A stretch of DNA of 64,000 bases from NCBI RefSeq assembly GCF_007858975.2, contig NZ_CP042220.2:2604001-2668000 (forward strand), given 5' to 3'. The position numbers and the translations under genes were made by a program. Under the pieces are notes generated by a model. It was not told the DNA's origin, searched no databases, and saw nothing but the letters and a program-made list of their open reading frames with translations. Shown here in pieces: positions 10,232-25,495 of this stretch; position 1 is the first letter of the stretch; each line of letters begins with the position of its first letter. Origin of the DNA: Dickeya poaceiphila (lineage in GTDB: Bacteria; Pseudomonadota; Gammaproteobacteria; Enterobacterales; Enterobacteriaceae).

Positions 10232-10551
10232 TAATTGCAGTTTTAATAGTATATTCACCCCCTTTATGGGTATTTGCAGATGAAATTACGCTATGCAACT
10301 CAATACACAACGATAACTGTGTCTATTTAATAGACATTCCGCCACTATATTTGCCCGCGCCCTTTTCGGCATTAACGCGTCATCACTTCATGTCACTTAC
10401 CGGCCTTCACCTTAACCGGCAACACATCTGCACGAAAAATTTAACAACGCAAGGCCGCTGACGAGGGGAACGAAGAAATAACCGGATTGATGTTGCAACA
10501 TATCGACAACATCCAACAGGCGGGTAGGCAGGATATCGTGGTTAAAAGAAT

Positions 10552-10578
10552 GGGCAGGCTGAAAGACTCAGCCTGCCC
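10552..10578 (-). terminator. Rho-independent terminator after acnB
   Basis: A perfect 11-bp stem (GGGCAGGCTGA / TCAGCCTGCCC) with a 5-base loop is followed on the minus strand by ATTCTTTTAAC. It lies 65 bp beyond the stop codon of the aconitase gene and probably ends the tricarboxylate operon. Confidence 0.75.
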
Positions 10579-10642
10579 ACGAAACAACAGCGAAAATGTG
10601 CAGTCAGGACTGACCCGCATCAACAGATACGGGCCTGAAGCC

Positions 10643-13243
10643 TTAGACGGCTTGTACCGGAATTCGCTTTGTTGCCGCCGGGTCTGACGGTGCGGCAAAA
10701 TTCAAATAACGGTAAATATCCGGTGCAGACTGGGACAATATCGCCACCTGTTGCAGGTATTCCGCCGCCGTGGGCAAGCGACCCAACATAGCCGCGACCG
10801 TACTCAACTCCGCCGATGCCAGATAGACATTGGCATCAGTACCAAGACGGTGCGGGAAATTGCGGGTAGAAGTGGAGACGACATGGCTGCCTGCCTTCAC
10901 TCTGGCCTGATTACCCATGCATAACGAGCACCCGGCAGGCTCAATACGTACGCCTGACTTGATAAACTGGCTGAAATAACCCTCGTCGCTGAGTTGACGG
11001 GCATCCATACGCGTTGGCGGGGCCAGCCACAACCGGGCGGAGATATCCCCCTGATGTTGCGACATCAGCTTACCTGCGGCACGGAAATGCCCGATGTTGG
11101 TCATGCATGAACCGATAAATACCTCATCAATGCGGTTTCCTGCCACGTCGGAGAGGGTTTTCACATCATCAGGATCATTCGGGACACACAAAATCGGCTC
11201 GTTGATGGTCGCCAGATCTATCTCGATTACCGCGGCATACTCCGCATCAGCATCGGCAGTCAGTAACTGCGGGTCATCCAGCCACTGCTCCATGCGATTA
11301 ATACGGCGTTCCAGCGTTGGCGCATCCTGATATCCCTCGTCTATCATGGTACGCAGCAACGCCACATTCGAGCGCAGATAGGTTTCCACTTCTTCCTGCT
11401 CAAGCTTAATGGTACAAGCCGCCGCCGAGCGCTCTGCCGAAGCATCCGACAGTTCAAACGCCTGCTCCACGCTCAAGCCGCTCAGACCTTCAATTTCCAG
11501 AATGCGGCCAGAGAAGATGTTTTTCTTGCCCTGCTTCGCTACCGTCAGCAGCCCCTGCTGAATGGCAAAATACGGGATGGCATGGACCAGATCACGCAAC
11601 GTGATGCCTGGTTGCATTTGCCCCTTAAAGCGCACCAGCACCGACTCCGGCATATCCAGCGGCATGATGCCGGTTGCCGCAGCAAACGCCACCAGACCGG
11701 AACCGCCGGGGAAAGACAGCCCAATCGGGAAACGGGTGTGGGAGTCTGCACCTGTACCAACGGTATCCGGCACCAGCATCCGGTTGAGCCAGGAATGGAT
11801 GATGCCATCGCCTGGACGCAGCGATACCCCATTACGCTGGGTAATGAAATCCGGCAAGGTTTTGTGCAGGTTAACATCGACCGGTTTCGGGTAAGCCGAG
11901 GTATGGCAGAACGACTGCATCACCAGATCGGCGGAAAATTGCAGACAAGCCAAATCTTTCAGCTCGTCACGCGTCATGCCGCCGGTGGTATCCTGAGAAC
12001 CAACCGTCGTCATGCGCGGTTCACAGTACTGGCCCGGACGCACGCCAGCCACGCCGCACGCCTTACCCACGATTTTCTGTGCCAGCGTATAGCCGCGCGA
12101 CGACTCGGCTGGCGCTTTGGGCAGACGAAATGCCGTGCTTGCCGCCAACCCCAGTGACTGACGAGCACGCGCAGTCAGGCTGCGGCCAATAATCAGCGCA
12201 ATACGCCCACCTGCGTGCACTTCATCAAGCAGCACGTCAGTTTTCAGGGTAAAGCGGGTGATCAGGGCATTATCATCATGGCGACGCACTTCACCCTGAT
12301 AGGGATAAATATCAATCACATCGCCGGTTGCCAGTGCGGTCACATCCATTTCAATCGGCAGCGCCCCGGAGTCTTCCAGTGTATTGAAGAAAATTGGCGC
12401 GATTTTACCGGCCAGCACCACCCCGCCAGCACGCTTATTCGGTACAAACGGAATGTCCTGACCGATGTGCCACAGAATCGAGTTAGTGGCTGATTTACGC
12501 GACGAACCGGTTCCCACCACATCGCCCACATACACCAGCGGATAGCCTTGTTCTTTCAGTGCCAGCATCTGCGCCACCGGCCCAATACTGCCCGGTTTAT
12601 CCGGCGTAACACCATCGCGGGGCACGCTCAACATGCACAGTGCATGTAGCGGAATATCCGGACGCGACCAGGCTTCCGGTGCCGGTGACAGGTCATCGGT
12701 GTTGGTTTCACCCAACACTTTGAACACCGTCAGCGTGATTTTTTCCGCCAGTGCCGGACGTGAGTTAAACCACTCGGCATCAGCCCAGGATTGTAATACC
12801 CGCCGTGCAGCGGCATTTCCCTGCCCGGCTTTCTTTTCAATCTCACCAAAATAATCAAATATCAGCAGCGTATGGCTGAGCGCTTTTACCGCTTCTTCTG
12901 CTAATACATCGCTATCGAGCGCATCAATTAATGGCTGAATATTATAGCCACCCTGCATAGTCGCTAATAAACGCACAGCGGCAATCGGAGAAATTGCCGC
13001 AATAGTTATCTCGCCACGTACAACTTTCCCTAAAAATGCCGCTTTAACCTGTGCTGCATCATCCACTCCGGGGGAAATATGGTATGTCAGCAGCTCAAGC
13101 CACGCCGGAATATCAGCGGATGACTGATTTTCTGCAGCAGATAATTGTGCTACCAGCTCTGTAGCCTGCTGTGCAGTTAACGGCTTGGGCGGAATACCCA
13201 TTTCACGTCGTTCAGCAATATGGGCATTATAATTTTCTAACAT
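10643..13243 (-). CDS. Aconitate hydratase B-type, in the citrate lyase locus
   Basis: 866 residues, collinear with E. coli AcnB (865) over the whole length: N-terminal HEAT-like domain, then the swivelling domain ([20 protein letters not shown]), then the catalytic domains. The [4Fe-4S] ligands are in place (Cys in [10 protein letters not shown]; two Cys in [10 protein letters not shown]). It interconverts citrate, cis-aconitate and isocitrate. Its C-terminus and N-terminal 200 residues diverge clearly from E. coli AcnB, and it sits at the end of the citrate lyase gene string instead of beside the usual housekeeping acnB neighbours. I therefore read it as a pathway-dedicated paralogue. The start ATG has AAGGAG six bases upstream. 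Whether the genome also has a standard acnB cannot be seen. Confidence 0.9.
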
Positions 13244-13565
13244 GACAACTCCTTACCATGGCAATGGTAATCAATGCGTAATTAACGCCAAAATAAAAAC
13301 AGGTTTTAGCTCAGAGTATTGAAATAACAATTGGCGATATCATTTTTATAATTCTCAGTCAGAGAATGCGTCCTAACCCTGGAAAATAAATAACGATCAA
13401 GCGGAGAAAGTCAGCGCCGCGATACTGGCCTGAAATAACGGCGCCTCCCTATTACGGGTGAACACCTATTACGAGTATTACGGGTTCACCCAGCCAACCA
13501 GACCCGGTTTCGGCGTCAGCCTTACCACCAAAGCCGACACCACCCGATGGTGAAGAACTTGCTGC
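13244..13565 (-). other. Gap between citX and the aconitase gene
   Basis: 322 bp without a gene. It holds an inverted repeat GGGTGAAC...GTTCACCC (13456-13463 and 13484-13491) without a T-tract, and a small palindrome TTACCAT/ATGGTAA (13253-13270) just before the aconitase ribosome site. It may hold a separate aconitase promoter or a processing site; neither is proven. Confidence 0.4.
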
Positions 13566-14096
13566 TTAGTGACCATCAAACCAGTCACGCAGCATCTCCT
13601 CGATGCGCCCGGTCACCGCCGTCAGCGTATGGCGCTGCCCACGGGAACACATATGAGCCGGCTCATCACACAGCAGACACCGCCGCGGCTCGTGCGCCAG
13701 CAACGTTCTGCTTATCGAGCCTTCCTGTGGGCAAAATACGTCAAAATCCCACAACCGGCCCAGCGGATGCTGCTCTTCCAGCGCAATCGCCGCCGCCTTC
13801 ACGCTCAGCGCATCCTTGCTCATCACCCAGAACGCTTCCGCTCCCGTCTCCTGCCAGGTCACCTCCCGCTCCAGCACCGGCCAGCCGCGGGCCACACACA
13901 GCGCATCAAACGCCCCGACGGCGACCTCCATCGCGCCACGGTAACCCGGCGCATCCTTCACCGCTCCCGGCGTCACCAGCGTCAGCGACACCAGCGTCGA
14001 CCGGTGCCGCGCCAGCAGCTGCTGCTGCCGCGCATGGCGGCGATCTTTCGCCGCCAGCACCTGCTCCAGAGTCACCGTGACCGACACCTCGCTCAC
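13566..14096 (-). CDS. citX: Apo-citrate lyase phosphoribosyl-dephospho-CoA transferase
   Basis: 176 residues, close to E. coli CitX (183). CitX transfers the 2-(5''-phosphoribosyl)-3'-dephospho-CoA prosthetic group from its triphosphate precursor onto the acyl carrier CitD. Family features are visible: the N-terminal LEQVLAAKDRRHARQQ segment and a C-terminal Cys-rich stretch RRCLLCDEPAHMCSR. The start overlaps the citF stop by 4 bp (ATGA). The partner gene citG, which makes the triphosphate precursor in E. coli and Klebsiella, is not found anywhere in this window. Confidence 0.9.
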   Translation of the reverse strand: MSEVSVTVTLEQVLAAKDRRHARQQQLLARHRSTLVSLTLVTPGAVKDAPGYRGAMEVAVGAFDALCVARGWPVLEREVTWQETGAEAFWVMSKDALSVKAAAIALEEQHPLGRLWDFDVFCPQEGSISRTLLAHEPRRCLLCDEPAHMCSRGQRHTLTAVTGRIEEMLRDWFDGH

Positions 14097-15622
14097 GCGT
14101 TGTCCTCTTTCACCTGACGCACCACGTCAATCACCGTGCCGTCCCGGTAGCGGATCACCCCAACAATCCGGTCGTGGAACTCGATCGCCTTCGGCTCGCC
14201 CACCAGCTGGATGGCCCGCTCATACAGCGCCTCCACCGGCATCACGTTCAGCCCCGCCTGCGTCAGACGCGCCGCCACCTCCGGGCGCGCCGGGTTCACC
14301 GCGATACCGTGGTCCGTCACCAGCACGTCGATGGCGCTCCCCGGCGTCACGCAGGTCGTGACCTGACGCACCACCGTCGGGATGCGGCTGCGGATCAGCG
14401 GCGCCACCACGATGGTCAGGTTCGCCGCCGTCGCCACGTCGCAGTGACCGCCCGACGCCCCGCGCATCACCCCGTCCGACCCGGTTATCACGTTCACGTT
14501 GAACTGCGTGTCGATTTCCAGCGCACTCAAAATCACCACGTCCAGCTGGTCACAGCACGCCGCCTTGGCGCTGGGGTTCGCGTACACGTTGGTCGAGATT
14601 TCCACATGCCGCGGGTTCTTCGCCAGCGACGCCGCCGCATTCGCGTCAAAGCACTGGGTGTCCAGCAGCGTCTCTATCAGCCCCTTCTCATGCAGGTCGA
14701 CGATGCTCCCGGTGATGCCCCCCAGCGCAAAGCGTGCCACCACGCCCTGCTGCTGCATCCGGTCTTCCAGAAAACGGGTGCACGCCGTCGAGGCCGCGCC
14801 CGACCCGGTCTGGATCGAAAAGCCCGCCCTGAAATACCCGGAGTGCTCGATCACGTCCGCCGCCGTCCGCGCTATCAGCAGTTCACGCGGGTTGCTGGTC
14901 ACGCGCGCCGCCCCCACGCTGATTTTCGCCGGGTCGCCCACTTCCTCCACCGGCACCACGAAATCCACCTGGTCCTGCACGATGCTCGCCGGCATGTTCG
15001 GGAACGGCACCAGACTTTCCGTCAGCAGCACCACCTTTTTCGCGTAGTGCGCATCCACCATCGCGTAACCCAGCGACCCGCAGCGCGATTTCCCCGACGT
15101 CCCGTTGGCGTTGCCGAATTCGTCGCTGCTCGGCACACCGAGAAACGCCACGTCTATCGCCAGCTCGCCGCTCTGCAGCAGGTGCACCCGCCCCCCGTGC
15201 GAGTGGATCTGCACCGGCTCGTCCATCAGCCCGTGCGAAATCGCGTCCGCCAGCTTGCCGCGCATCCCCGACGTGTAGATGCGGGTTATCACCCCGTTGC
15301 GGATATGCTCTATCAGCGGCGCGTTGCAGGTCATCAGCGAACTCGACGCCAGCGTCAGGTTTTTGAACCCCAGCCGCGCCAGCGTCTCCACCACATGGTT
15401 GATCACCTTGTCCCCTTCACGGAACGCGTGGTGGAACGATATCGTCATCCCGTCCTGCAGCCCGCTCTTGCGGATGGCCTCTTCCAGGTCGGCGCACAGC
15501 TTGCGACGGTGTTTTTCGGTGACGTCATCCAGCCACGGCGTGCGCTGGTTGGCGCTCACGAACGGCTGCAGATGACTTTTTTCCGGGTATTGCTGCTGCA
15601 ATGCTTCAATAATATTACTCAT
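14093..15622 (-). CDS. citF: Citrate lyase alpha subunit (citrate:acetyl-ACP transferase)
   Basis: 509 residues, against 510 in E. coli CitF. It exchanges the acetyl group on CitD for citrate, forming citryl-ACP. Conserved CoA-transferase-like segments are visible, e.g. GMTISFHHAFREGDKVIN near residue 60, and glycine-rich SGGHCDVATAANLTIV in the C-terminal half. It follows citE after 82 bp, the largest gap within the cit genes, and overlaps citX by 4 bp. The codon use is strongly GC-rich, producing long antisense open frames that are not genes. Confidence 0.95.
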   Translation of the reverse strand: MSNIIEALQQQYPEKSHLQPFVSANQRTPWLDDVTEKHRRKLCADLEEAIRKSGLQDGMTISFHHAFREGDKVINHVVETLARLGFKNLTLASSSLMTCNAPLIEHIRNGVITRIYTSGMRGKLADAISHGLMDEPVQIHSHGGRVHLLQSGELAIDVAFLGVPSSDEFGNANGTSGKSRCGSLGYAMVDAHYAKKVVLLTESLVPFPNMPASIVQDQVDFVVPVEEVGDPAKISVGAARVTSNPRELLIARTAADVIEHSGYFRAGFSIQTGSGAASTACTRFLEDRMQQQGVVARFALGGITGSIVDLHEKGLIETLLDTQCFDANAAASLAKNPRHVEISTNVYANPSAKAACCDQLDVVILSALEIDTQFNVNVITGSDGVMRGASGGHCDVATAANLTIVVAPLIRSRIPTVVRQVTTCVTPGSAIDVLVTDHGIAVNPARPEVAARLTQAGLNVMPVEALYERAIQLVGEPKAIEFHDRIVGVIRYRDGTVIDVVRQVKEDNA

Positions 15623-15704
15623 GTTCCAGTCCTGTCATGGCGACGGCCCGGCGTGCGTTCACGCCGCCGGCCCGCGCGGAAAACGTGCTTTACCCTGCGG
15701 CGAC

Positions 15705-16598
15705 CTACCGGCGTACGCCCGACGCCAGCGCGCGCTCCACCACCCGACGGGCGTGGTCGATTATCGGGCTGTCGATCATTTTTCCGTTCAGCGAAATCAC
15801 CCCCAGCCCGGCGCGCTCGCCCTCTTCCGCCGCCTTGATCACCAGATGGGCGTAGTCCACCTCGTCCTGGGTCGGCGCGTAGGCGTTGTGCAGCAGTTCA
15901 ATCTGCCGCGGGTTGATCAGCGACTTGCCGTTAAAGCCCAGTCCGCGGATCAGCTCCACTTCCTTCAGGAAGCCCGCCTCGTCGTTGACGTTGGAGTACA
16001 CCACGTCAAACGCATCGATACCTGCGGCGCGCGCCGCGTGCAGCACCGCGCAGCGGGCGTAGAACAGCTCGGTACCGTCACCGCGCTCGGTCTGCATGTC
16101 CATCACGTAGTCGAAGGCCGCCAGCGCAATCCCGATCATCCGCCCGGACGAACGGGCGATGGACACCGCGTTGATCACCCCGATCGCCGACTCGATGGCC
16201 GCCATGATGCGGGTGGAGCCGACTTCACGCCCGCACGCCTTTTCGATGCGCACCAGGTGGTGCTCCAGTTCATCGACATCCGCGGTGGAATCGGTTTTCG
16301 GCAGACGAATCACATCCACCCCGCCCCGCACCGCCGCTTCCAGATCCTTCAGACCGAACGGGGTGTTGAGCTGGTTGATGCGCACCACGGTTTCAATGTC
16401 CCGGTACATCGGGTGCTGCAGCGCATGGTACACCAGCAGCCGCGCGGTATCTTTCTCGCGCAGCGACACCGCATCCTCCAGGTCGAACATGATGGAGTCA
16501 GGCCGGTAGATAAAGGCGTTGGACAGCATGGCGGCATTCGCGCCCGGCAGGAACAACATGCTGCGGCGCAGTTTTTTCGGCTGAGTCGTGGCGCTCAT
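15705..16598 (-). CDS. citE: Citrate lyase beta subunit (citryl-ACP lyase)
   Basis: 297 residues (E. coli CitE 302). TIM-barrel lyase splitting citryl-ACP into acetyl-ACP and oxaloacetate. HpcH/CitE family motifs are visible: [14 protein letters not shown] at the start, [13 protein letters not shown] with the acidic metal ligand, and [13 protein letters not shown] near residue 135. The ATG overlaps the last base of the citD stop codon (TAATG), a sign of coupled translation of the lyase subunits. Confidence 0.95.
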
Positions 16599-16888
16599 TA
16601 CAGTTTCTCCCAGTCAATCTCGTCAACACCGGCGGCCCGCAGCACCGCACTCTGTACCCGCGCGCGGATCACGCAGTCCAGCGCGCCCTTGTCGTCCACC
16701 ACGATGGTGCCGGCCTTCACCCCCAGCGCCGCCAGGGTGTCGTTCACCACCTGGGTGATTTGGGCGCCGAACTGTTTGATGACCTCGCTGTTGATCACCA
16801 CGGTCAGCTGGCCTTCCGCCGGCGCCACCTTGACCAGCAGATCACTGGATTCAAAGGTGCCCGCCAGGGCCTCCTTGATTATTTTCAT
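16598..16888 (-). CDS. citD: Citrate lyase gamma subunit (acyl carrier protein)
   Basis: 96 residues (E. coli 98). It carries the phosphoribosyl-dephospho-CoA prosthetic group on a serine; Ser14 in GTFESSDLL corresponds to the modified Ser14 of Klebsiella CitD. The conserved [17 protein letters not shown] segment near residue 65 is present. It lies between citC (32 bp upstream) and citE (1-bp overlap). Together with CitE and CitF it forms the soluble citrate lyase complex. Confidence 0.95.
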
Positions 16889-16920
16889 GTTGTTTACCTG
16901 CCTAATACATTAAATACACA

Positions 16921-17970
16921 TCACGCGCAGGCGAGTTCGCCATAGCGCTGTAGATGCACGAACGTGGTTGCCGGGACAATCTCGCGGATGGGGTCGAACT
17001 GGCGCTGCTTCAGTAACCGGCGCACCTCGGAGGCGGAAATCGCCAGGCCGGAATGCTGACGAGTGCGCTCAATTTCCACCACCTCCAGCGCCGGGGCGGC
17101 CACCTGCGTGGCCTGCTCCAGCCAGTGGTGCATATCCTGGTTGTACCGGTTGGTCACCGGGCAGAACGGCTCGGTGCCGACAAAGCGCCGGGTGATGCCG
17201 AGCGCCGGGGCGATATACTGGCGAAAGATGATCAGATCCAGCGCCGCATGGGCCTGGGTCACCAGTGTCTCTTCCTTCAGGAAATAGCCCGGAAAGGTGG
17301 CCCTGGAGATCATGTACTCCGACCCGGCGTGCACCGTCAGGTTCGGGATATGGGCCACGCCCTGACGCACCATCTCCAGGCGCTCGGTGAACGGGAAAAA
17401 GGAGACGTCCTCCCGCACCACGAAGATATGCAGCCAGTCACAGGCGCCGGCGGCCTGCTCGGCCAGATAGCGGTGCCCCAGCGTAAACGGGTTGGCGTTC
17501 ATCACGATGGCGCCGATGTCCCGGCCCGGTCTGGCCTCGGCTGCCAGCGACTGGCAATACTGCCGGATGCCGATGGGGGTGTTCTCCATCAGCACCGCCT
17601 GGTCGTCATAGCAGGCCAGCGGGTAGAAGCCGCAGCCGCGGAACACCGCGGTGTTGCCAGGACGGGTGTAGAGAAACAGATGGAACTGGCCGCGGGCGGC
17701 GGCAAACTGCACCACCTCGTTCACCACCTTTACCCCCAGGTTCAGCTCGCGGTAGTCGGGCGCCACCGCCACACACTTGATGGTAGTGGCGCACAGCCCG
17801 GCACAGGCCACCAGCCTGCCGTTATGCCTGCCTGCCACAAAAAATTCGACATCCCTGTCCATGCCCAGCTGGCACACCGCCAGCAGGTCGGTAATCTCAG
17901 TCAGTTCAGAGGAAGGAAGGCGAACATCCAGCGTGGCAAACGTAACACTCTCATCGTCATCGGCGTACAT
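16921..17970 (-). CDS. citC: Citrate lyase acetyl-ligase
   Basis: 349 residues (E. coli CitC 352). It acetylates the thiol of the CitD prosthetic group using acetate and ATP, switching citrate lyase on. An N-terminal GNAT-like domain (roughly residues 1-140) is followed by a nucleotidyltransferase domain with the adenylate-binding motif MNANPFTLGHRYL near residue 160. Its position ahead of citDEFX matches enterobacterial cit operons. No citAB sensor-kinase genes accompany it, unlike E. coli and Klebsiella. Confidence 0.93.
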   Translation of the reverse strand: MYADDDESVTFATLDVRLPSSELTEITDLLAVCQLGMDRDVEFFVAGRHNGRLVACAGLCATTIKCVAVAPDYRELNLGVKVVNEVVQFAAARGQFHLFLYTRPGNTAVFRGCGFYPLACYDDQAVLMENTPIGIRQYCQSLAAEARPGRDIGAIVMNANPFTLGHRYLAEQAAGACDWLHIFVVREDVSFFPFTERLEMVRQGVAHIPNLTVHAGSEYMISRATFPGYFLKEETLVTQAHAALDLIIFRQYIAPALGITRRFVGTEPFCPVTNRYNQDMHHWLEQATQVAAPALEVVEIERTRQHSGLAISASEVRRLLKQRQFDPIREIVPATTFVHLQRYGELACA

Positions 17971-18032
17971 AACGGTTATCCTGCTTTTTGCTGTACCACA
18001 TCACACCTCCGGCGTACCGGAGGAGATACCCG

Positions 18033-18917
18033 TCAGTGTTCCACGGCGGCAGGAACCGCACGTGATGCTTTCACCGGCTGGGCGGCTTCACCAATGGTGT
18101 TGCGCAGGTGGCCCACGTTTTCGATTTCCACTTCAATGCTGTCGCCCGGCTTCATAAACAGCGGCGGCGTGCGTTTCTTGCCCACGCCCCCCGGCGACCC
18201 GGTAATGATGACGTCACCGGCGCTCAGCGCGGTGAAGGTGCTGATGTATTCGATCAGGTCCGCCACCTTGTGGATCATGCTGGCGGTGTTGTCGTCCTGC
18301 ACCATGTGACCGTTCAGGTAGGTGCGGATGGCCAGGGCGTGCGGGTCCGGAATTTCGTCACGGGTGGTGAGGTACGGCCCGAATGCGCCGGTCTTCTGCC
18401 AGTTCTTGCCGGCGGTAAACCAGCTGTGCTGCCAGTCACGGGCGGAGCCGTCCATGTAGCAGCTGTAACCGGCGACAAACGACAGCGCCTCGTCACGGCT
18501 GATGTTCTGACCGCTTTTGCCGATGATGACCGCCAGTTCGCCTTCATAGTCAAACTCGCTGGAGTAGTGCGGCTTGAGCACCTGGGTGCCGTGACCGGTC
18601 TGCGAGTCGGCGAAGCGCACAAACAGCGTCGGGGCCGGGTTCTGTTCATTGAATTCCTTGCGTTTGTCGGCATAGTTCATGCCGACGCACAGGATTTTGG
18701 ATGGCGCCACAATCACCGGCAGGAAGGTCACGTCGGCCACGGCCACATCCGGGGTTTCGTTCTGGAAGGCGGCGGCGTCATGGAGCGCATCGCCCGCCAG
18801 CAACGCCTTCAGGTCCGGGTAACGGTTGCCGAGGCGGCTGCCCAAATCAATCAGACCCGCAGGCGTGTGGATCCCGTAGCTGTTTTTACCGTTATAGCGG
18901 TAACTTGCAAGTTTCAT
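18033..18917 (-). CDS. Fumarylacetoacetase-fold protein, candidate oxaloacetate decarboxylase or tautomerase
   Basis: 294 residues: a short N-terminal domain, then the FAH catalytic domain with the metal ligands in FDYEGELAVII (E-x-E) and the Asp of CYMDGSARDWQ, plus the GKNWQKTGAFGPYL loop and TGSPGGVG near the C-terminus. The family includes hydrolases, 2-oxoacid decarboxylases and tautomerases; ~300-residue members such as Bacillus YisK and mitochondrial FAHD1 decarboxylate oxaloacetate. Because the gene lies immediately before citC, and citrate lyase makes oxaloacetate, decarboxylation of oxaloacetate to pyruvate is the most economical guess. AGGTG six bases before the ATG. Family sure, reaction inferred. 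Confidence 0.8.
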   Translation of the reverse strand: MKLASYRYNGKNSYGIHTPAGLIDLGSRLGNRYPDLKALLAGDALHDAAAFQNETPDVAVADVTFLPVIVAPSKILCVGMNYADKRKEFNEQNPAPTLFVRFADSQTGHGTQVLKPHYSSEFDYEGELAVIIGKSGQNISRDEALSFVAGYSCYMDGSARDWQHSWFTAGKNWQKTGAFGPYLTTRDEIPDPHALAIRTYLNGHMVQDDNTASMIHKVADLIEYISTFTALSAGDVIITGSPGGVGKKRTPPLFMKPGDSIEVEIENVGHLRNTIGEAAQPVKASRAVPAAVEH

Positions 18918-19013
18918 AACGACACCTGGTGTGAGTTCAAAACATGTTTTGTACCGGCTGAATAATCATATTCAGCGCGGTATCCCTTATTTATTTTTCA
19001 GATGTTTCATCTT

Positions 19014-19036
19014 ATCGGGTATTTTATTTACCCGAT
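19014..19036. other. Intergenic hairpin between the MFS and FAH genes
   Basis: Perfect 8-bp arms ATCGGGTA / TACCCGAT with a 7-base loop lie 13 bp after the MFS stop codon inside the operon. There is no adjacent T-tract on the minus strand, so an mRNA processing or stability element, or partial attenuator, is more likely than a full terminator. Confidence 0.5.
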
Positions 19037-19048
19037 TTATTCATCCGA

Positions 19049-20293
19049 TTATTTATTATTTTCTGCCGCAACCAGGCTGACACGCTGAATACCGTTCAGA
19101 TATGTCGCTACTACAATACCGCTGACCAGCAAGGTAATAATAAACGCCGTCATGCCCATCCAACCAGCTGAAGAGAAGATAAGGCCGTTGCAGTAACCCA
19201 CTACCGAGCCACCCATGTAGTAGAAGAACAAATACAGTGCGGTTGCCTGCCCACGGGCATGGGTAGCATTTTTACTGACCCAGCTCAACCCGATGGAGTG
19301 GCAGCCAAAGAAACAACCGGTAAACAGAATGGCACCGATAATAAAGATGGTCAGATTAGCGGTTAATGTCATCAGCATACCGACAATCATTAACGTAAAT
19401 AATGCGGACAATACTTTCAGCGCACCATATTTCTGTGATAAACGACCTGCCTGTGGCGCGGTAAAAAAGCTCATGATGAAACTGAAGGAAATCAACCCGG
19501 CATTGGCATGGGAAACATTGAACGGTTCACGTGCCAGATAAAAAGCCAGATAGTTGTACAACGAGGTAAACACACCAAAGATAATGAAACTGACCACATA
19601 CATCAGAGACAGTTTCTTGTTTTTAAAATGCGCCATAGCGCCTTTGATGATGTGACTAAAGTTCAGGCTGCTGCTGGCCTTGAAGTTTTTCGATGCGGGT
19701 AGTACTAACGACACCAGCAATGCTGCAAACATCAACGTAAAGGCAAAGCAGTAGAAGATAAAATCAATAGATACATGACCAATCAACTGGCTGGCGATAA
19801 CACGACCTGACATACCGCCAATCGAGTTGCCAAACACGAAATAACCCGTCACGACGCCTGCCACCACCGGTGCAACTTCTTCACTGATATAGGCTGTGGC
19901 TGCTGCGGCAATACCACTTAATGACAGACCGATTATACCGCGCAGTATCACCAGCAATGTCCAGGATTTTACCAGCGGGCAAATCAGCGTCAGCAAACCG
20001 CCCAGCAATAGCGATACCACAATCAGCCGTTTGCGCCCGTAACGGTCAGCCAGTGTACCGGTAAACAGCAACCCGATTGCCAGCAACGCCGTTTCCGCCG
20101 ACAGAATAATACTGACCTGGCTAACGGGAATATCATACTCTTTAGCCAACACCGGTAATAACGGTTGAATAAAAAACAGCGATGCCAGTTCAGCCAGGCC
20201 AGAAAACGCCAGAGCAAAAATGACACGCAAGTATTGAGAAACATTAACCTGCTTTTCCTGGCGATCAGGCGTCGGAGTCTGAATTGCACTCAT
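19049..20293 (-). CDS. MFS transporter, YnfM-like, candidate tricarboxylate uptake system
   Basis: 414 residues with 12 predicted membrane segments and the MFS loop 2-3 motif GTLADRYGRKRLIV near residue 80; the RGIIGLSLSGIAAAATAYISEE region and SIGGMSGR match the E. coli YnfM/CynX-like branch, usually annotated as inner-membrane transport protein. It replaces the citrate carriers (CitS, CitT) that usually accompany citrate lyase. Its place between the PrpF-like isomerase and FAH genes suggests that it imports the pathway substrate, but direction and substrate cannot be read from sequence. Ribosome site GAGG six bases before ATG. Confidence 0.85.
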   Translation of the reverse strand: MSAIQTPTPDRQEKQVNVSQYLRVIFALAFSGLAELASLFFIQPLLPVLAKEYDIPVSQVSIILSAETALLAIGLLFTGTLADRYGRKRLIVVSLLLGGLLTLICPLVKSWTLLVILRGIIGLSLSGIAAAATAYISEEVAPVVAGVVTGYFVFGNSIGGMSGRVIASQLIGHVSIDFIFYCFAFTLMFAALLVSLVLPASKNFKASSSLNFSHIIKGAMAHFKNKKLSLMYVVSFIIFGVFTSLYNYLAFYLAREPFNVSHANAGLISFSFIMSFFTAPQAGRLSQKYGALKVLSALFTLMIVGMLMTLTANLTIFIIGAILFTGCFFGCHSIGLSWVSKNATHARGQATALYLFFYYMGGSVVGYCNGLIFSSAGWMGMTAFIITLLVSGIVVATYLNGIQRVSLVAAENNK

Positions 20294-20362
20294 GATAACC
20301 TCACAATATTTTTTGTAGAGATACTGGGGAAATATAAAAACACTTATTGCATTAATTATTTT

Positions 20363-21454
20363 TTAAATATTTTCGGCGTCCAACGCGTATGACGGAACAA
20401 ACACATTTCCATCAAATAATTTTCTTGCCGTTCGGATCACTGATGCACGAATATCTTCATGACGTTCGCCGTTTTTCATTAATGATACGGCAATTTTTCC
20501 ACTGGGGTGTTCAATACGGACGGATTCTAAAAAGCCGTTGCGGTATTCGGCTGGCAACACATCTTGCGCCACACTGCCTTCAACCACACAGGCGGTGGAA
20601 ATACCAATAGACCCAGTAATTGCCAGCGAACGATGACAGTTATGCGGCATAAAATAACGTACCTGAATAGTACCACCTGCATTCGGCGAGCTGAGTAATA
20701 CCGGTTTAGGGATCACTTTATTGCTGACATCACCCAGGCCCATCGCCTGCCCGGCTTGTAACCGAATATGCTCCAGTCGCTGCATAAATGCGCTGTCTGC
20801 ATCCAGATCTTGTGGCAACTCGCTGCCGGTCTTGTCCAGTGAACGCGCATCAATCAATACCATCGGCATTGCCATATCGATACAGGTCACATCTACGCCA
20901 TCAAACACATCGCGCACGTTGCCGGTAGGAAACAGTTTGCCGGTTTTGCTGCCAGCTGAATTCAGGAATGTCAGCCCGACCGGGGCTGCGCGACCAGGTA
21001 CGCCATCGATTTCAGTTTCGCCATCGTACTCTACGCGCTGCTGCGGCGTATTAATATCCGCGTCCACCATCGTACCGGTATTCAGATTACGAATACGCAC
21101 GCGTGTGGTAGGATGAGTGGCGGTCACCAGGCCATGCTCAATGGCGAACGGACCCACGGCACACAGCATATTGCCGCAGTTTGGTGTGGTATCCACCCGA
21201 CGTTCTTTCACCATCACCTGTGCAAACAGGTAGTCCACATCTGCATCCGGATGGGTGGATTTGCTGACAATGGCTACTTTGCTGGTTTGCGGCGCGCCGC
21301 CGCCAATGCCATCGATTTCCAGCTCGTGACCTGAACCCATCAACCCCAGCAATACTTCATCACGCTGCTGGCTATCTTGCGGCAAATCACTGGCTAAAAT
21401 CACCGGGCCTTTTGATGTGCCGCCGCGCATTAATACACAGGGAATCTTTACCAT
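20363..21454 (-). CDS. PrpF/YbhH-family isomerase, candidate aconitate isomerase
   Basis: 363 residues from the ATG at 21454 (a GTG one codon earlier is possible). Strong match to E. coli YbhH, including IPCVLMRGGTSKGPVILA at the start, DGIGGGAPQTSKVAI, VDTTPNCGNMLCAVGPFA with the Cys predicted as catalytic in the family, and VRYFMPHNCHRSLAITG. PrpF isomerises trans- to cis-2-methylaconitate; GalD is a 4-oxalomesaconate tautomerase. In E. coli ybhH sits beside a LysR gene (ybhD), a carboxylate transporter (ybhI) and an aconitase-like gene (ybhJ), the same ingredients as here. With aconitase and citrate lyase in the same operon, trans-aconitate to cis-aconitate is a plausible reaction (inference). 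Confidence 0.85.
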   Translation of the reverse strand: MVKIPCVLMRGGTSKGPVILASDLPQDSQQRDEVLLGLMGSGHELEIDGIGGGAPQTSKVAIVSKSTHPDADVDYLFAQVMVKERRVDTTPNCGNMLCAVGPFAIEHGLVTATHPTTRVRIRNLNTGTMVDADINTPQQRVEYDGETEIDGVPGRAAPVGLTFLNSAGSKTGKLFPTGNVRDVFDGVDVTCIDMAMPMVLIDARSLDKTGSELPQDLDADSAFMQRLEHIRLQAGQAMGLGDVSNKVIPKPVLLSSPNAGGTIQVRYFMPHNCHRSLAITGSIGISTACVVEGSVAQDVLPAEYRNGFLESVRIEHPSGKIAVSLMKNGERHEDIRASVIRTARKLFDGNVFVPSYALDAENI

Positions 21455-21614
21455 CACGTTCTCTCACGCTTTCACTACTTTTGATGGCATAAGCATCCCA
21501 TAGCGCGATCAATGACTCTAATGTCAAAAAAATAGCGATTAATTTGTTTCTTGCATTAATGATACGCTGATTACAGATTAGCGAGTCACCACCATCGGCA
21601 GGAGGGAAAAAACG
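21455..21614. promoter_or_regulatory. Divergent promoter region between the PrpF-like and LysR genes
   Basis: 160-bp AT-rich gap with the arrangement typical of a LysR regulator controlling a divergent operon. On the minus strand a TTGACA -35 box (21522-21527) has a weak -10 candidate (GCTATG, 21499-21504) 17 bp away. The exact LysR T-N11-A site could not be singled out. Confidence 0.45.
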
Positions 21615-22541
21615 ATGCAGCATGAGCTTCAGGGCATCAAAGCATTTGTCAAAATTGCGGATACAGGTTGTTTTACTAAGGCCTCAGAACTGTTACATAT
21701 TTCTCAGCCTGCATTAACACGGCGGATAAAAAAACTGGAAGAGAGCCTGGGTGCGACACTGTTTGAACGCTCGACGCGTCGGGTTAGTCTGACCGCCGTT
21801 GGCAAAAGCTTTCTGCCAAATGCACGAAATCTGCTTGATTTTTATGAAAATGCCATCCTGAACATTCAGGAAATGGCCTCGCATCAGACAGGTTTTGTTA
21901 CGTTATCGTGTATTCCAACTGCGGCCTTCTACTTTCTGCCCGCTGTGATTCGTAATTACAACGAACACTACCCGAATATCCGCATTCGCATACTGGAACA
22001 CAGTGCAAGCGACTGTCTGGATGCCGTTCTCAATGGTGATGCGGATTTTGGTATTAATATGATCAACGTCACACACTTCAATGTGGAGTTCACACCGCTG
22101 GTCAACGAGCCTTTTGTACTGGCCTGCCGACGCGACCATCCGCTGGCAAAAAATTCGCTGGTGATGTGGGAAGAACTGTCGGATTACCCGTTGATTGGTG
22201 TGAGACGCTCCAGTGGCAACCGCTTGTTGATCGAGCAGGCGCTGGAAAACAGCGCCTGGAAACCCAACTGGTTTTATGAAGTACGCCACCTGTCCACATC
22301 TCTTGGCATGGTGGAGGCGGGGTTGGGGATCGCAGCGGTTCCCAGCCTGGCGATGCCGCGTGACGAGCACCATGTGTTAGTCAGTAAACCATTGATAGAA
22401 CCGGTTGTACGCAGAACGCTCGGCGTAGTGCAACGTAAAGACTCCACGCTAAGCCCGGCGGCAGAACGCTTTAAAGATATGCTGATGCATCTGTGGTCCA
22501 ACGAGAAGAACAGTCCCTGGATAGGCAAATTCAATCTCTGA
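21615..22541 (+). CDS. LysR-family regulator of the tricarboxylate locus
   Basis: 308 residues: N-terminal winged helix-turn-helix (residues 1-62, with ISQPALTRRIKKLEESLG), then the effector-binding domain from about residue 90 (GFVTLSCIPTAAFYFLP). GGAGGG lies seven bases before the ATG. It is transcribed away from the PrpF-like gene, in the position that E. coli ybhD holds relative to ybhHIJ. It probably activates the long minus-strand operon in the presence of the imported acid. No two-component citrate sensor is present nearby, so this is the only local regulator. Confidence 0.88.
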   Translation: MQHELQGIKAFVKIADTGCFTKASELLHISQPALTRRIKKLEESLGATLFERSTRRVSLTAVGKSFLPNARNLLDFYENAILNIQEMASHQTGFVTLSCIPTAAFYFLPAVIRNYNEHYPNIRIRILEHSASDCLDAVLNGDADFGINMINVTHFNVEFTPLVNEPFVLACRRDHPLAKNSLVMWEELSDYPLIGVRRSSGNRLLIEQALENSAWKPNWFYEVRHLSTSLGMVEAGLGIAAVPSLAMPRDEHHVLVSKPLIEPVVRRTLGVVQRKDSTLSPAAERFKDMLMHLWSNEKNSPWIGKFNL

Positions 22542-22730
22542 CAAATTCAATCACTGAATAGTCGCCACACATCCATGACCGGACATCAAAACACATCATG
22601 TCAATATGCATACCGCATCATATGCACTGACAGATATGGCCATGACGTGCTATGGCTACTCATGGCGAAATTGATAGCCTCATCACATTTTGACGCACTA
22701 CTCAGCTTACCCAACCTATCAGGAAGACCT

Positions 22731-23786
22731 ATGCCAGATCACATCAGGCCGCACTACAATCTGCAAACCGGACGATTTTTCAATCTGCGTCCGTCGAATA
22801 CATCGCGGATGGGTCTGTGGCAAACGTTGTCGCTGCTATGGCGGCTTGGTTTTCAGCGCCGGGGTCGCGTACCACCCAAACGGCTACCGGAGATATCCCC
22901 CGATCTCACGGCCTTCCTGGCTGCTGACGAACGTCTCAAATTCATTTGGTTCGGGCATTCCACCCTGCTGCTCAATCTGGACGATACCCGTATTCTGATA
23001 GACCCGGTGTTTTCCGCCAGCGTATCGCCGTTTAGCTTTATGTTCCGCCGTTTTCAGCCGCCAGTGTTGCCGCGCGCAGCGCTGCCGGATATCGACATCA
23101 TTCTGCTGTCGCACGACCACTACGACCATCTGGATGAACAGACGATTCGCGCCTTTCGCAACACCGCAACCCGCTTTATCGTTCCGCTAAAAGTAGGCCA
23201 GCACCTGCAAAAATGGGGGATTGCAGCGGATCGGATTCAGGAACTGGACTGGTATCAATCTCATACGCTCAACGGCATCAGGTTCACCGCCACGCCGTCA
23301 CACCATTTTTCTGGCCGCAGTTTGTCGGGCCGCAACACAACGTTGTGGGCCTCCTGGGTGATTGAAGGACAACGGGACCGACTCTTTTTCAGCGGCGATT
23401 CCGGTTACGGCGAGCACTTTCGTGAGATCGGCGAACGCTTCGGTCCGTTCTCTCTGGCGTTTATGGAAAACGGACAGTACAACGAACGCTGGCCGGATTC
23501 GCACATGCACCCGGAGCAGACCATACAGGCGGTACAGGACGTGCGCGCCCGCCTGTTTATGCCGATCCACTGGGGCATGTTTGCGCTGGCGTTTCACGAC
23601 TGGGCCGACCCGGTGCGCAGCAGCAGCCGGTTGGCTCAGGAGCGACAGATACCGATGCTGACACCGATGCTGGGTGAAGTGGTCACGCTGGGGATACCCA
23701 TTACCACGCCGCTGTGGTGGGAGAAAGACGTTGATGCGCTACCGTCACGACCTATCGCCAGAAACGCGGTCCAGGATGTGGAATAG
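22731..23786 (+). CDS. Metallo-beta-lactamase-fold hydrolase, NAPE-PLD/RomA-like
   Basis: 351 residues from the ATG at 22731, chosen because AGGAAG lies just upstream; the open frame extends 52 codons further without support. The binuclear zinc motif is visible as LLSHDHYDHLD near residue 125, with later ligands in TPSHHFSGR, FSGDSGYG and FMPIHWGMF. FIWFGHSTLLLNLDDTRILIDP is typical of the NAPE-hydrolysing phospholipase D-like branch, which includes bacterial proteins named RomA or YfbG-like. The natural substrate is unknown. No signal peptide. It stands alone between the LysR gene and hicAB. Confidence 0.8.
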   Translation: MPDHIRPHYNLQTGRFFNLRPSNTSRMGLWQTLSLLWRLGFQRRGRVPPKRLPEISPDLTAFLAADERLKFIWFGHSTLLLNLDDTRILIDPVFSASVSPFSFMFRRFQPPVLPRAALPDIDIILLSHDHYDHLDEQTIRAFRNTATRFIVPLKVGQHLQKWGIAADRIQELDWYQSHTLNGIRFTATPSHHFSGRSLSGRNTTLWASWVIEGQRDRLFFSGDSGYGEHFREIGERFGPFSLAFMENGQYNERWPDSHMHPEQTIQAVQDVRARLFMPIHWGMFALAFHDWADPVRSSSRLAQERQIPMLTPMLGEVVTLGIPITTPLWWEKDVDALPSRPIARNAVQDVE

Positions 23787-24871: not shown

Positions 24872-25495
24872 TCAGAAAGCCTCCGGTAATTTCCGCCACA
24901 GCGCGTCCCGACGTTCCGCATCCGCGAGTTCCTTATGTTGCGCTTTCTCCAGCCACTCGCGGGCGGCAGAGGGACTCAGGATAAACACGCCGTCGTCATC
25001 GCCTATCGCCACATCGCCGGGATGCACCGTCACCCCGGCGACCGTCACCGGCACATTAACCGCACCAGCGGTTCCCAGCGTGCGGGTGGTAATCGCACTG
25101 ATGCCTTTGCAAAACACCGGCAGCCCCAGTTGACGCAGCGCGCGTGAATCCGTCACCGCGCCAGCTACGACAACCCCCGCCAGCCCTTTCACTTTCGCCG
25201 CCAGCGTACGCAGTTCGCCCCAGCAGGCGCGCGTTTCCTCATCCGAAGCATCGATAACCAGTACATCGCCAGGCTGGCTCAGCAACAGCGCTTCACGCAG
25301 TACACCGCCGTCCGGCGGGCACAGTTTCACCGTCACTACGTTGCCGACCATCCGCACATCCGGCACGAGTGGCTGGATGCCGTATAAATAGCCGCTTTCC
25401 ATCAAATGCCCCAGCGTGGAGGTACTGATGTGGCGGTAGTCTGCCAGCAGGTCATCACTAACCGGCGACACACGGGGAATGATTTGATAATTCAT
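24872..25495 (-). CDS. RraA-fold protein (HMG-aldolase/RraA family) with altered active-site motif
   Basis: 207 residues of the RraA/4-hydroxy-4-methyl-2-oxoglutarate aldolase family: GDVLVIDASDEE near residue 78, GELRTLAAKVKGLAGVVV near 93-110, and GAVNVPVTVAGVTVHPGDV, IGDDDGVFI near the end. In divalent-metal aldolases and in E. coli RraA the segment after the last Val reads like DG-x-V-RD; here it is AGAVTDSR, so the Arg that binds substrate (Arg123 in the aldolase) is Thr115, while Asp116 is kept. It lies 94 bp behind cbrD on the same strand, so it may belong to the achromobactin-uptake transcript. Family fairly sure; activity open. Confidence 0.75.
   Translation of the reverse strand: MNYQIIPRVSPVSDDLLADYRHISTSTLGHLMESGYLYGIQPLVPDVRMVGNVVTVKLCPPDGGVLREALLLSQPGDVLVIDASDEETRACWGELRTLAAKVKGLAGVVVAGAVTDSRALRQLGLPVFCKGISAITTRTLGTAGAVNVPVTVAGVTVHPGDVAIGDDDGVFILSPSAAREWLEKAQHKELADAERRDALWRKLPEAF

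Follow-up and report, generated by a model that had tools for sequence, protein, structure and literature searches.

We analysed a 64-kb stretch of the Dickeya poaceiphila genome (the window; positions 2604001-2668000 of a single contig of 4,317,154 bases) that holds a LysR-type regulator gene diverging from a run of genes for PrpF, an MFS transporter, an FAH-fold protein, CitC, CitD, CitE, CitF, CitX and AcnB, all on the minus strand. The operon as a whole is best explained as an inducible catabolic route for trans-aconitate, and we consider this explanation probable. Its gene content, gene order and diverging regulator had been claimed by a sequence-only reading of this DNA; Pfam and NCBIfam searches bear the claim out, and every frame is intact. 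In the proposed route, the LysR protein would sense trans-aconitate or a product of it and act at an ATTAAT-N11-ATTAAT site, and the MFS protein would import trans-aconitate. PrpF (with Lys60 and Cys94) would isomerise it to cis-aconitate, which the AcnB of the operon would hydrate to citrate. The citrate lyase CitDEF, activated by CitC and CitX together with CitG from a second operon, would cleave citrate to acetate and oxaloacetate, and the FAH-fold protein would decarboxylate oxaloacetate to pyruvate and CO2. Because such a route has no need of the oxidative tricarboxylic acid (TCA) cycle, it should work without oxygen.

The families of the genes, their order, their conservation, the identical lyase in a CitS-type operon and the conserved catalytic motifs are read directly from the DNA. 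The enzymatic activities, the inducer, and the substrate and direction of the MFS transporter are predicted from sequence. FAH is the least certain enzyme step and the MFS substrate is the least certain part of the route. The same route had been proposed in the sequence-only reading. It stays the best reading, with most steps strengthened by the lyase identity and by the co-location of PrpF, AcnB and FAH with citF, and its proposal for the transporter substrate is tentative. We also put forward a wider reading, possible but doubtful when its parts are taken jointly, in which the operon encodes a stand-alone anaerobic trans-aconitate pathway with two parts not described before, the FAH subfamily and the second AcnB. 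A biotin-free FAH oxaloacetate decarboxylase, marked by a change of the lid His to Lys, would stand in for the OadGAB sodium pump in many citrate operons of enterobacteria. A fast-evolving second AcnB, with Ser449 beside an active-site motif, would work despite trans-aconitate, and gene conversion would hold the lyase half of the Dickeya operon to the same sequence as in the citrate operon. The features of the locus, in window coordinates, are as follows.

21615-22541, plus strand: LysR-type regulator, divergent from the operon
21458-21614: LysR-PrpF intergenic region, with ATTAAT-N11-ATTAAT at 21538-21560, the probable LysR operator
20363-21457, minus strand: PrpF-family isomerase of the YbhH type, proposed aconitate isomerase (PF04303, 428.6 bits, cut-off 27)
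19049-20293, minus strand: MFS transporter, proposed trans-aconitate importer (PF07690, 161.5 bits)
18033-18917, minus strand: FAH-fold protein of the citrate-lyase-linked subfamily, proposed oxaloacetate decarboxylase (PF01557)
16921-17970, minus strand: CitC, citrate lyase ligase (TIGR00124, 392.9 bits)
16598-16888, minus strand: CitD, citrate lyase acyl carrier protein (TIGR01608, 109 bits, cut-off 63.5)
15705-16598, minus strand: CitE, citrate lyase beta subunit (TIGR01588, 466.2 bits, cut-off 443.4)
14093-15622, minus strand: CitF, citrate lyase alpha subunit (TIGR01584, 753.2 bits, cut-off 501.45)
13566-14096, minus strand: CitX, apo-citrate lyase prosthetic-group transferase (TIGR03124, 189.6 bits)
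13410-13554, minus strand: citG remnant of about 145 bp, resembling the region of locus L125 that holds an intact citG
10643-13243, minus strand: AcnB-type aconitase, the second AcnB of the genome (TIGR00117, 1405.3 bits, cut-off 1287.2)
10550-10580, minus strand: terminator-like hairpin 3' of AcnB (14 pairs, 8 of them GC)
13568-18919, minus strand: tract from FAH start to CitX end, 97.7% identical over 5395 bp to its counterpart in the CitS operon of this genome

The citrate lyase and its second copy

CitC, CitD, CitE, CitF and AcnB pass their NCBIfam equivalog cut-offs, and CitX passes an equivalog-domain cut-off. The same genome holds a second citrate-lyase operon with the order 2HCT (CitS-type)-FAH-citCDEFXG, which diverges from genes for a sensor kinase and a response regulator. 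The CitD, CitE and CitF proteins of the two operons are 100% identical, so the window lyase very probably cleaves citrate; action on another substrate (citramalate) was set aside on the same ground. At the DNA level the two operons share 98.4% identity over FAH, 99.3% over CitC, 100% over CitD and CitE, 99.9% over CitF and 90.1% over CitX. The partner of the shared tract lies at G000:C1 2334500-2339920 (in L125), and the short flanks of the tract are 31% and 62% identical.

The citG gene is required for the prosthetic group of citrate lyase. The gap between citX and acnB in the window is 322 bp long and contains two citG-like stretches (75% over 64 bp, E 2e-7; 79% over 43 bp, E 3e-5), which indicates that citG was lost from this operon. 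The only CitG match of the genome is intact and lies in the second citrate-lyase operon (2333655-2334434). A lyase activation set is available, with CitC and CitX in the window operon and CitG from the second operon.

PrpF is present in five of nine Dickeya genomes, and the same five have a second AcnB (89-100% identical to that of the window). Both operons are readable in four Dickeya genomes, and within each of these the two citF copies, one per operon, are mutual nearest relatives (support 1.000, 0.986, 0.944 and 0.993). Identity between citF copies is 98.2-100% within a genome and 87.2-90.8% between genomes, except for the close pair G001/G006 (98.3%). PrpF is 80.7-83.6% identical between Dickeya genomes and 96.3% identical in that pair. 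The two lyase copies have been homogenised within each of the four genomes, a concerted evolution by repeated gene conversion. A single recent duplication was rejected because all four genomes have both operons; independent recopying of the lyase genes in every genome is a less parsimonious and less likely alternative to conversion. The near identity of the two lyases makes this a clear example of gene conversion acting between metabolic operons.

The PrpF operons of G001 and G006 yielded no citX, so accessory genes are apparently shared between the two operons. In G001 (L126) the PrpF operon has broken frames for CitC and CitE, and the CitC frame is longer in the CitS copy, which could be sequencing error. 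Part of both operon copies of G005 is unread, and a citC deletion shared by the two was rejected since both copies read as N throughout that region. In Dickeya zeae EC1, citD is listed among the few genes reported as unique to that strain among rice strains (PMC4522980). This may be an assembly effect from two near-identical copies per genome.

Conservation of the operon and of its proteins

A PrpF scan of named genomes gave 186 relatives, of which the best 80 loci were kept. The full order LysR, PrpF, MFS, FAH, CitC/D/E/F/X, AcnB was found in 14 of the 80, from Kosakonia, Phytobacter, Enterobacter, Citrobacter, Enterobacillus, Pantoea, Raoultella, Mixta, Prodigiosinella and another Enterobacteriaceae. 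The complete operon spans about ten related genera (nine named genera besides Dickeya), and the notion of a pathway unique to one strain was rejected. At all 14 complete loci citG lies between citX and acnB, and at 13 of them a serine-hydrolase gene does too (families assigned by Pfam for L003). Three further named loci (L002, L009 and L011) end early at a contig end. No cit gene was found in the sequence around PrpF at three enterobacterial loci (L012, L015 and L017) or at 60 Pseudomonas loci; for L017, L039 and L060 the sequence reaches less than 8.5 kb beyond PrpF, so these negatives are short-range. The closest named match listed for PrpF is 92% identical and comes from Dickeya oryzae, in a search that may omit records near the window.

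For a survey, 129 Enterobacteriaceae genomes of 128 genera, which overlap in part with those of the 80 loci, were searched with FAH, CitF, PrpF, PF02436 and AcnB. Genes were taken as co-located within 12 kb (14 kb for AcnB to PrpF), and the citF counts drop two of the three citF fragments of G060, a genome that is 49% complete. PrpF of at least 59% identity lies near citF in 9 of 13 cases, against a mean of 0.085 and a highest value of 3 in 10,000 random placements that assume one 4.6-Mb sequence per genome. PrpF below 59% identity lies near citF in 0 of 11. The arrangement is far beyond chance, and the neighbourhood search for PrpF, AcnB and CitDEF that the sequence-only reading had called for finds that it is not unique. 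CitF itself occurs in 4 of 299 genomes of the phylum, all of them Enterobacteriaceae, and in none of 5426 E. coli genomes is 80% of the PrpF-MFS stretch matched at one place.

Variant arrangements were also seen (families by Pfam for L131, L157 and L158; by resemblance for the others). G010 has LysR/PrpF-citX-DASS-citCDEF-citG-AcnB with FAH absent, and G122 and G159 have citCDEF(X)G-DASS-PrpF divergent from an apparent two-component pair. G011 has citCDEFXG-PrpF-DASS-like permease; its PrpF is merely 34% identical and, judged by its sequence, is an independent recruitment into a cit operon. G093 (L157, G093:C2:78000-97500) has a citC...X-AcnB-OadAB cluster with an adjacent FAH of 60% identity and no close PrpF, perhaps another tricarboxylate pathway; a MatC/CitMHS-type permease gene is also part of this cluster. 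G031 has the ybhD/ybhHIJ-type arrangement of E. coli. Providencia has LysR-PrpF without cit genes (71-73% identical to that of the window), also on a plasmid, and a Rhizobium plasmid has LysR-PrpF together with ABC transporter genes. On a plasmid of Providencia sp. R33 (L166) the pair has no adjoining annotated transporter, and a similar PrpF lies on a plasmid of P. rettgeri.

A LysR homologue adjoins PrpF in all 80 named loci. It is divergent from the matched PrpF in 76; the exceptions are four Pseudomonas loci, where its divergent partner is a second PrpF. The LysR-PrpF gap was aligned for 26 loci and is 150-158 bp long in the 21 that are enterobacterial. ATTAAT-N11-ATTAAT is present in 18 of these 21 (it is missing from L003, L005 and L017) and in none of the five Pseudomonas gaps, with a shuffle rate of 0.0008. 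The copy at 21538-21560 is the sole perfect match to ATTAAT-N11/12-ATTAAT in the window, and the pattern is absent from the CitS-kinase gap of L125. It is probably the operator of the LysR protein. For the MFS protein, none of the 25 models listed among 35 matched NCBIfam models reaches its cut-off, and there is no significant similarity to a Pseudomonas CitMHS. The LysR-PrpF pair is found with SDF, CitMHS and OprD genes in Pseudomonas L024 and with OprD and TctC genes in L022 (the two of the 60 Pseudomonas loci covered by the Pfam scan), and with DASS permeases in L131, L134 and, by resemblance, L017.

The best PDB match of PrpF is YbhH (6otv), followed by LigU (6p3h-k are close), 3-methylitaconate isomerase and the PrpF of Shewanella oneidensis. 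K60 and C94 are invariant in 18 of 18 aligned sequences and correspond to K73 and C107 of the S. oneidensis protein, matched by motif (TSK and NCGN). Changes of K73 and C107 are reported to have abolished growth on propionate alone, with some in vivo activity kept by C107 variants, and S. oneidensis PrpF is reported to isomerise trans-aconitate and was crystallised with it (PMC5690661).

The other AcnB of the genome (G000:729843-732380) is 71% identical to the AcnB of the operon. Aligned to E. coli AcnB (1l5j), the operon protein has intact cysteine motifs, GSCMTN at 711 and GCSLCMGNQ at 771, which we take to hold the iron-sulphur cluster. Eight genomes have two AcnBs (E <= 1e-200), and the second is near citF in all eight and near PrpF in seven. 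The PrpF-linked AcnBs form a group apart from the housekeeping AcnBs (support 0.98), with a mean identity among seven genera of 70.9% as against 91.3%. Six positions are fixed differently between PrpF-linked and other AcnBs, one of them being the start residue, an artefact of untrimmed frames. Residue 449 belongs to the motif SFCHTxAYPKP, presumably part of the active-site lining. It is Ser in all 10 PrpF-linked AcnBs compared and Ala in all 14 others, as well as in G093 and E. coli 1l5j. Trans-aconitate is reported to inhibit aconitase (PMC13188880), so a bacterium feeding on it must cope with an inhibitor, and tolerance of trans-aconitate by the operon AcnB is a natural hypothesis. On an inhibitor-tolerant second aconitase, nothing on point was found among the papers listed by an open-access literature search.

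The nearest PDB sequences of the FAH-fold protein are HpaG (1gtt) and 8sky. Its segments DYEGEL, RDWQ and AGK are invariant in 20 of 20 sequences, the A of ARDWQ being variable, and in an alignment to 8sky and others they match relatives of the decarboxylase/tautomerase type. DYEGEL, ARDWQ and AGK represent the metal-site and base segments. The lid His of hydrolase-type FAH-superfamily members serves hydrolysis. A His stands at this position in the five aligned sequences of 25 PDB matches, and all 30 copies of the subfamily (both copies of some genomes included) carry the lid motif GMNYxxKRxEF, with Lys in its place. The roles of K123 and Q109 in human FAHD1 are described in PMC12176266. In the survey genomes, FAH of at least 66% identity lies near citF in 27 of 29 cases, and FAH below 66% in 1 of 18. 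There are 54 citF matches, with FAH near 28 and OadA near three (one of which also has FAH). FAH stands between the 2HCT gene and citC in the second citrate operon as well (L125:13031-13915). The D. poaceiphila genome has no PF02436 match for a biotin OadA, and OadA occurs in 4 of the 129 Enterobacteriaceae genomes. FAH is, on this evidence from sequence, a probable oxaloacetate decarboxylase.

Terminator-like hairpins as a class are no commoner in the window than in shuffles (10 found, shuffle mean 13.7), so the hairpin at 10580-10550 counts as supporting evidence only. Formate dehydrogenase-like genes, named by eye, lie on the strand of the operon past the hairpin. An MBL-fold protein (22575-23786) was set aside as a pathway member; among the compared loci it occurs in Dickeya alone.

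Alternative explanations and significance

Pantoea anthophila LMG 2558 has the whole operon (L016), and an isolate of P. anthophila came from a trans-aconitate growth screen (PMC13188880). Several points weigh against the trans-aconitate route. The citG gene has decayed in the D. poaceiphila operon. Of the 54 citF matches, 24 have neither FAH nor OadA within 12 kb, operon L131 has no FAH, and FAH enzymes are reported to be far better oxaloacetate tautomerases than decarboxylases (PMC10825186). NCBIfam names the window PrpF a 4-oxalomesaconate tautomerase (NF033377, passed with 535.6 bits at a cut-off of 440), the name that E. coli YbhH has in RefSeq. In G004, a Dickeya genome that lies outside the survey and lacks PrpF, a second AcnB is found at a distance from citF and the CitS-type operon. 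This protein (G004:C1:3486145-3488682, L109) has Ala at 449. The PrpF homologue AI-79 of Providencia rettgeri is reported to have had only 0.7%/0.4% isomerase activity (PMC11495376), and it may be of the same type as the window PrpF, given the 71-73% identity of the Providencia LysR-PrpF. In the same report, strains of Pantoea agglomerans and Serratia marcescens grow on trans-aconitate without a TarA homologue in the authors' search. We found no report of Dickeya growth on trans-aconitate in a search of the open-access literature on the two together.

If trans-aconitate is degraded as proposed, FAH could still be an oxaloacetate keto-enol tautomerase with a repairing or assisting role, and oxaloacetate would then leave by reduction to malate/succinate or through other decarboxylases. 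We hold this variant to be rather unlikely. FAHD enzymes are reported to have high tautomerase and very low decarboxylase activity (PMC10825186), and the FAH-less operon L131 and the 24 citF matches with neither gene nearby fit it. Against it, FAH stands in both citrate operons at the place of a decarboxylase while the genome has no PF02436 match, the AcnB-cit cluster of G093 carries OadAB although an FAH of 60% identity adjoins, and the His to Lys change in the lid marks a specialised subfamily.

Improbable, in our judgement, is an operon meant for another tricarboxylate (citrate, cis-aconitate or aconitate derived from tricarballylate), in which PrpF clears trans-aconitate formed as a by-product. 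The MFS substrate is not fixed by sequence, and citrate lyase and AcnB would serve any such acid. However, a CitS-type operon for citrate, with the same lyase, is already present in the genome, citrate use needs no second AcnB, and the constant core of the compared loci is the LysR-PrpF pair, neither the transporter nor the lyase.

A gallate or protocatechuate-type pathway, with PrpF as a 4-oxalomesaconate tautomerase like GalD or LigU, is very unlikely. It draws on the NF033377 score, on the closeness of the LigU structures 6p3h-k, and on a gene for an RraA-like protein 2.3 kb beyond LysR. The RraA-like family is that of the last aldolase of the gallate/protocatechuate pathway and also has oxaloacetate decarboxylase members. 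The nearest structure is nevertheless YbhH, itself of unproven function, and no dioxygenase or hydratase is found among the operon genes (a genome-wide search for gallate genes was not made). PrpFs that stand directly beside an RraA-like gene belong to a different group, 46-53% identical. The RraA-like protein itself (24872-25495, minus strand) also occurs in the Dickeya loci L002/L130 (one genome), L126 and L128. It was set aside as a pathway member; among the compared loci outside Dickeya, an RraA-like gene occurs only beside distant PrpFs (L138-L141, with L091 a short form of L138).

To an equally slight degree we credit production of trans-aconitate from citrate by AcnB and PrpF, with the MFS protein as its exporter, like tbrAB of Bacillus thuringiensis. 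Enterobacteria including Pantoea anthophila are reported to excrete trans-aconitate (PMC13188880), and isomerases are reported to favour trans-aconitate in vitro (PMC11495376), but citrate lyase and FAH in the same operon would destroy the precursor, and the same PrpF pairs with uptake-type systems in other genomes. Least credible of all is an accessory role in the 2-methylcitrate cycle, in which PrpF and AcnB would act on 2-methylaconitate: both families take part in that cycle (PMC5690661), yet PrpF scores 190.5 bits against TIGR02334 (2-methylaconitate isomerase PrpF), short of the cut-off of 440.55. There is no PrpB or PrpC among the operon genes, and a citrate lyase would be out of place.

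Maize and sugarcane are rich in trans-aconitate, and several of the enterobacterial genera that carry the operon are plant-associated. If the trans-aconitate route is correct, one operon in about ten enterobacterial genera could explain the reported growth of Pantoea, Enterobacter and Citrobacter isolates on trans-aconitate (PMC13188880). It would also give a function to the FAH subfamily found beside 28 of the 54 surveyed citF matches, suggest why OadA is so rare (4 of 129 genomes), and hint at the role of E. coli YbhH.

Comparison with known systems

The tarR-tarAB genes of Bacillus velezensis FZB42 are reported as a trans-aconitate assimilation system (PMC11495376). Like the Dickeya operon, they comprise a LysR-type regulator, a PrpF-superfamily aconitate isomerase and an MFS importer, a set that in Dickeya too is encoded together, with predicted isomerase and uptake activities. 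The likeness is one of gene families. As described in that report, the tar operon consists of tarA and tarB without aconitase, citrate lyase or FAH, its product enters the TCA cycle, and its recognition motif is TTATAA, whereas the probable one of the Dickeya operon is ATTAAT-N11-ATTAAT. Franconibacter is reported to use trans-aconitate and Siccibacter not to (PMC4179279). Acidaminococcus fermentans ferments trans-aconitate (Haertel & Buckel 1996, cited in PMC3035267) by a like route, from trans-aconitate through citrate and oxaloacetate to pyruvate. Its locus tags, however, are far apart (citrate lyase 0408-0410; aconitase 0096, 0631, 1971 and 1973; oxaloacetate decarboxylase 1362; PMC3035267 Table 6), and the gene list in that passage names neither PrpF nor FAH.

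E. coli ybhHI has been tied to the use of L-malate, not aconitate (PMC9068703). In the ybhD-ybhHIJ locus, LysR is divergent from a PrpF that is 64.0% identical, followed by genes annotated as an anion permease and a hydratase, but citrate lyase and FAH are lacking. The sequence-only reading had named this locus as one with the same regulator, isomerase, transporter and aconitase set without citrate lyase. In the ybhHIJ-like locus L134 the permease is of the DASS family and the hydratase of the Aconitase family.

The CitS/CitAB citrate-fermentation operon of the Klebsiella type and citCDEFXG of E. coli are known citrate systems. They share CitCDEFX(G) with the window operon, in which the lyase is identical to that of the CitS-type operon, and they differ in having a citrate transporter and two-component control and neither PrpF nor AcnB. 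AcnD is a different aconitase type from AcnB. The AcnD-PrpF pair of the 2-methylcitrate cycle likewise combines a PrpF isomerase with a dedicated aconitase-family enzyme (PMC5690661), but by score its PrpF is of another subfamily, and its substrate is another one. The sequence-only reading had held the combined route to be undescribed. This stands in part: no description of a single combined operon was found among the papers listed by searches of open-access full text (subscription journals were mostly outside the scope), while the reactions are known from A. fermentans and the regulator-isomerase-MFS module resembles tar. The reactions and the tar-type module are already known, and what is new is the single operon, which includes an aconitase of its own and a probable decarboxylase of the FAH fold.

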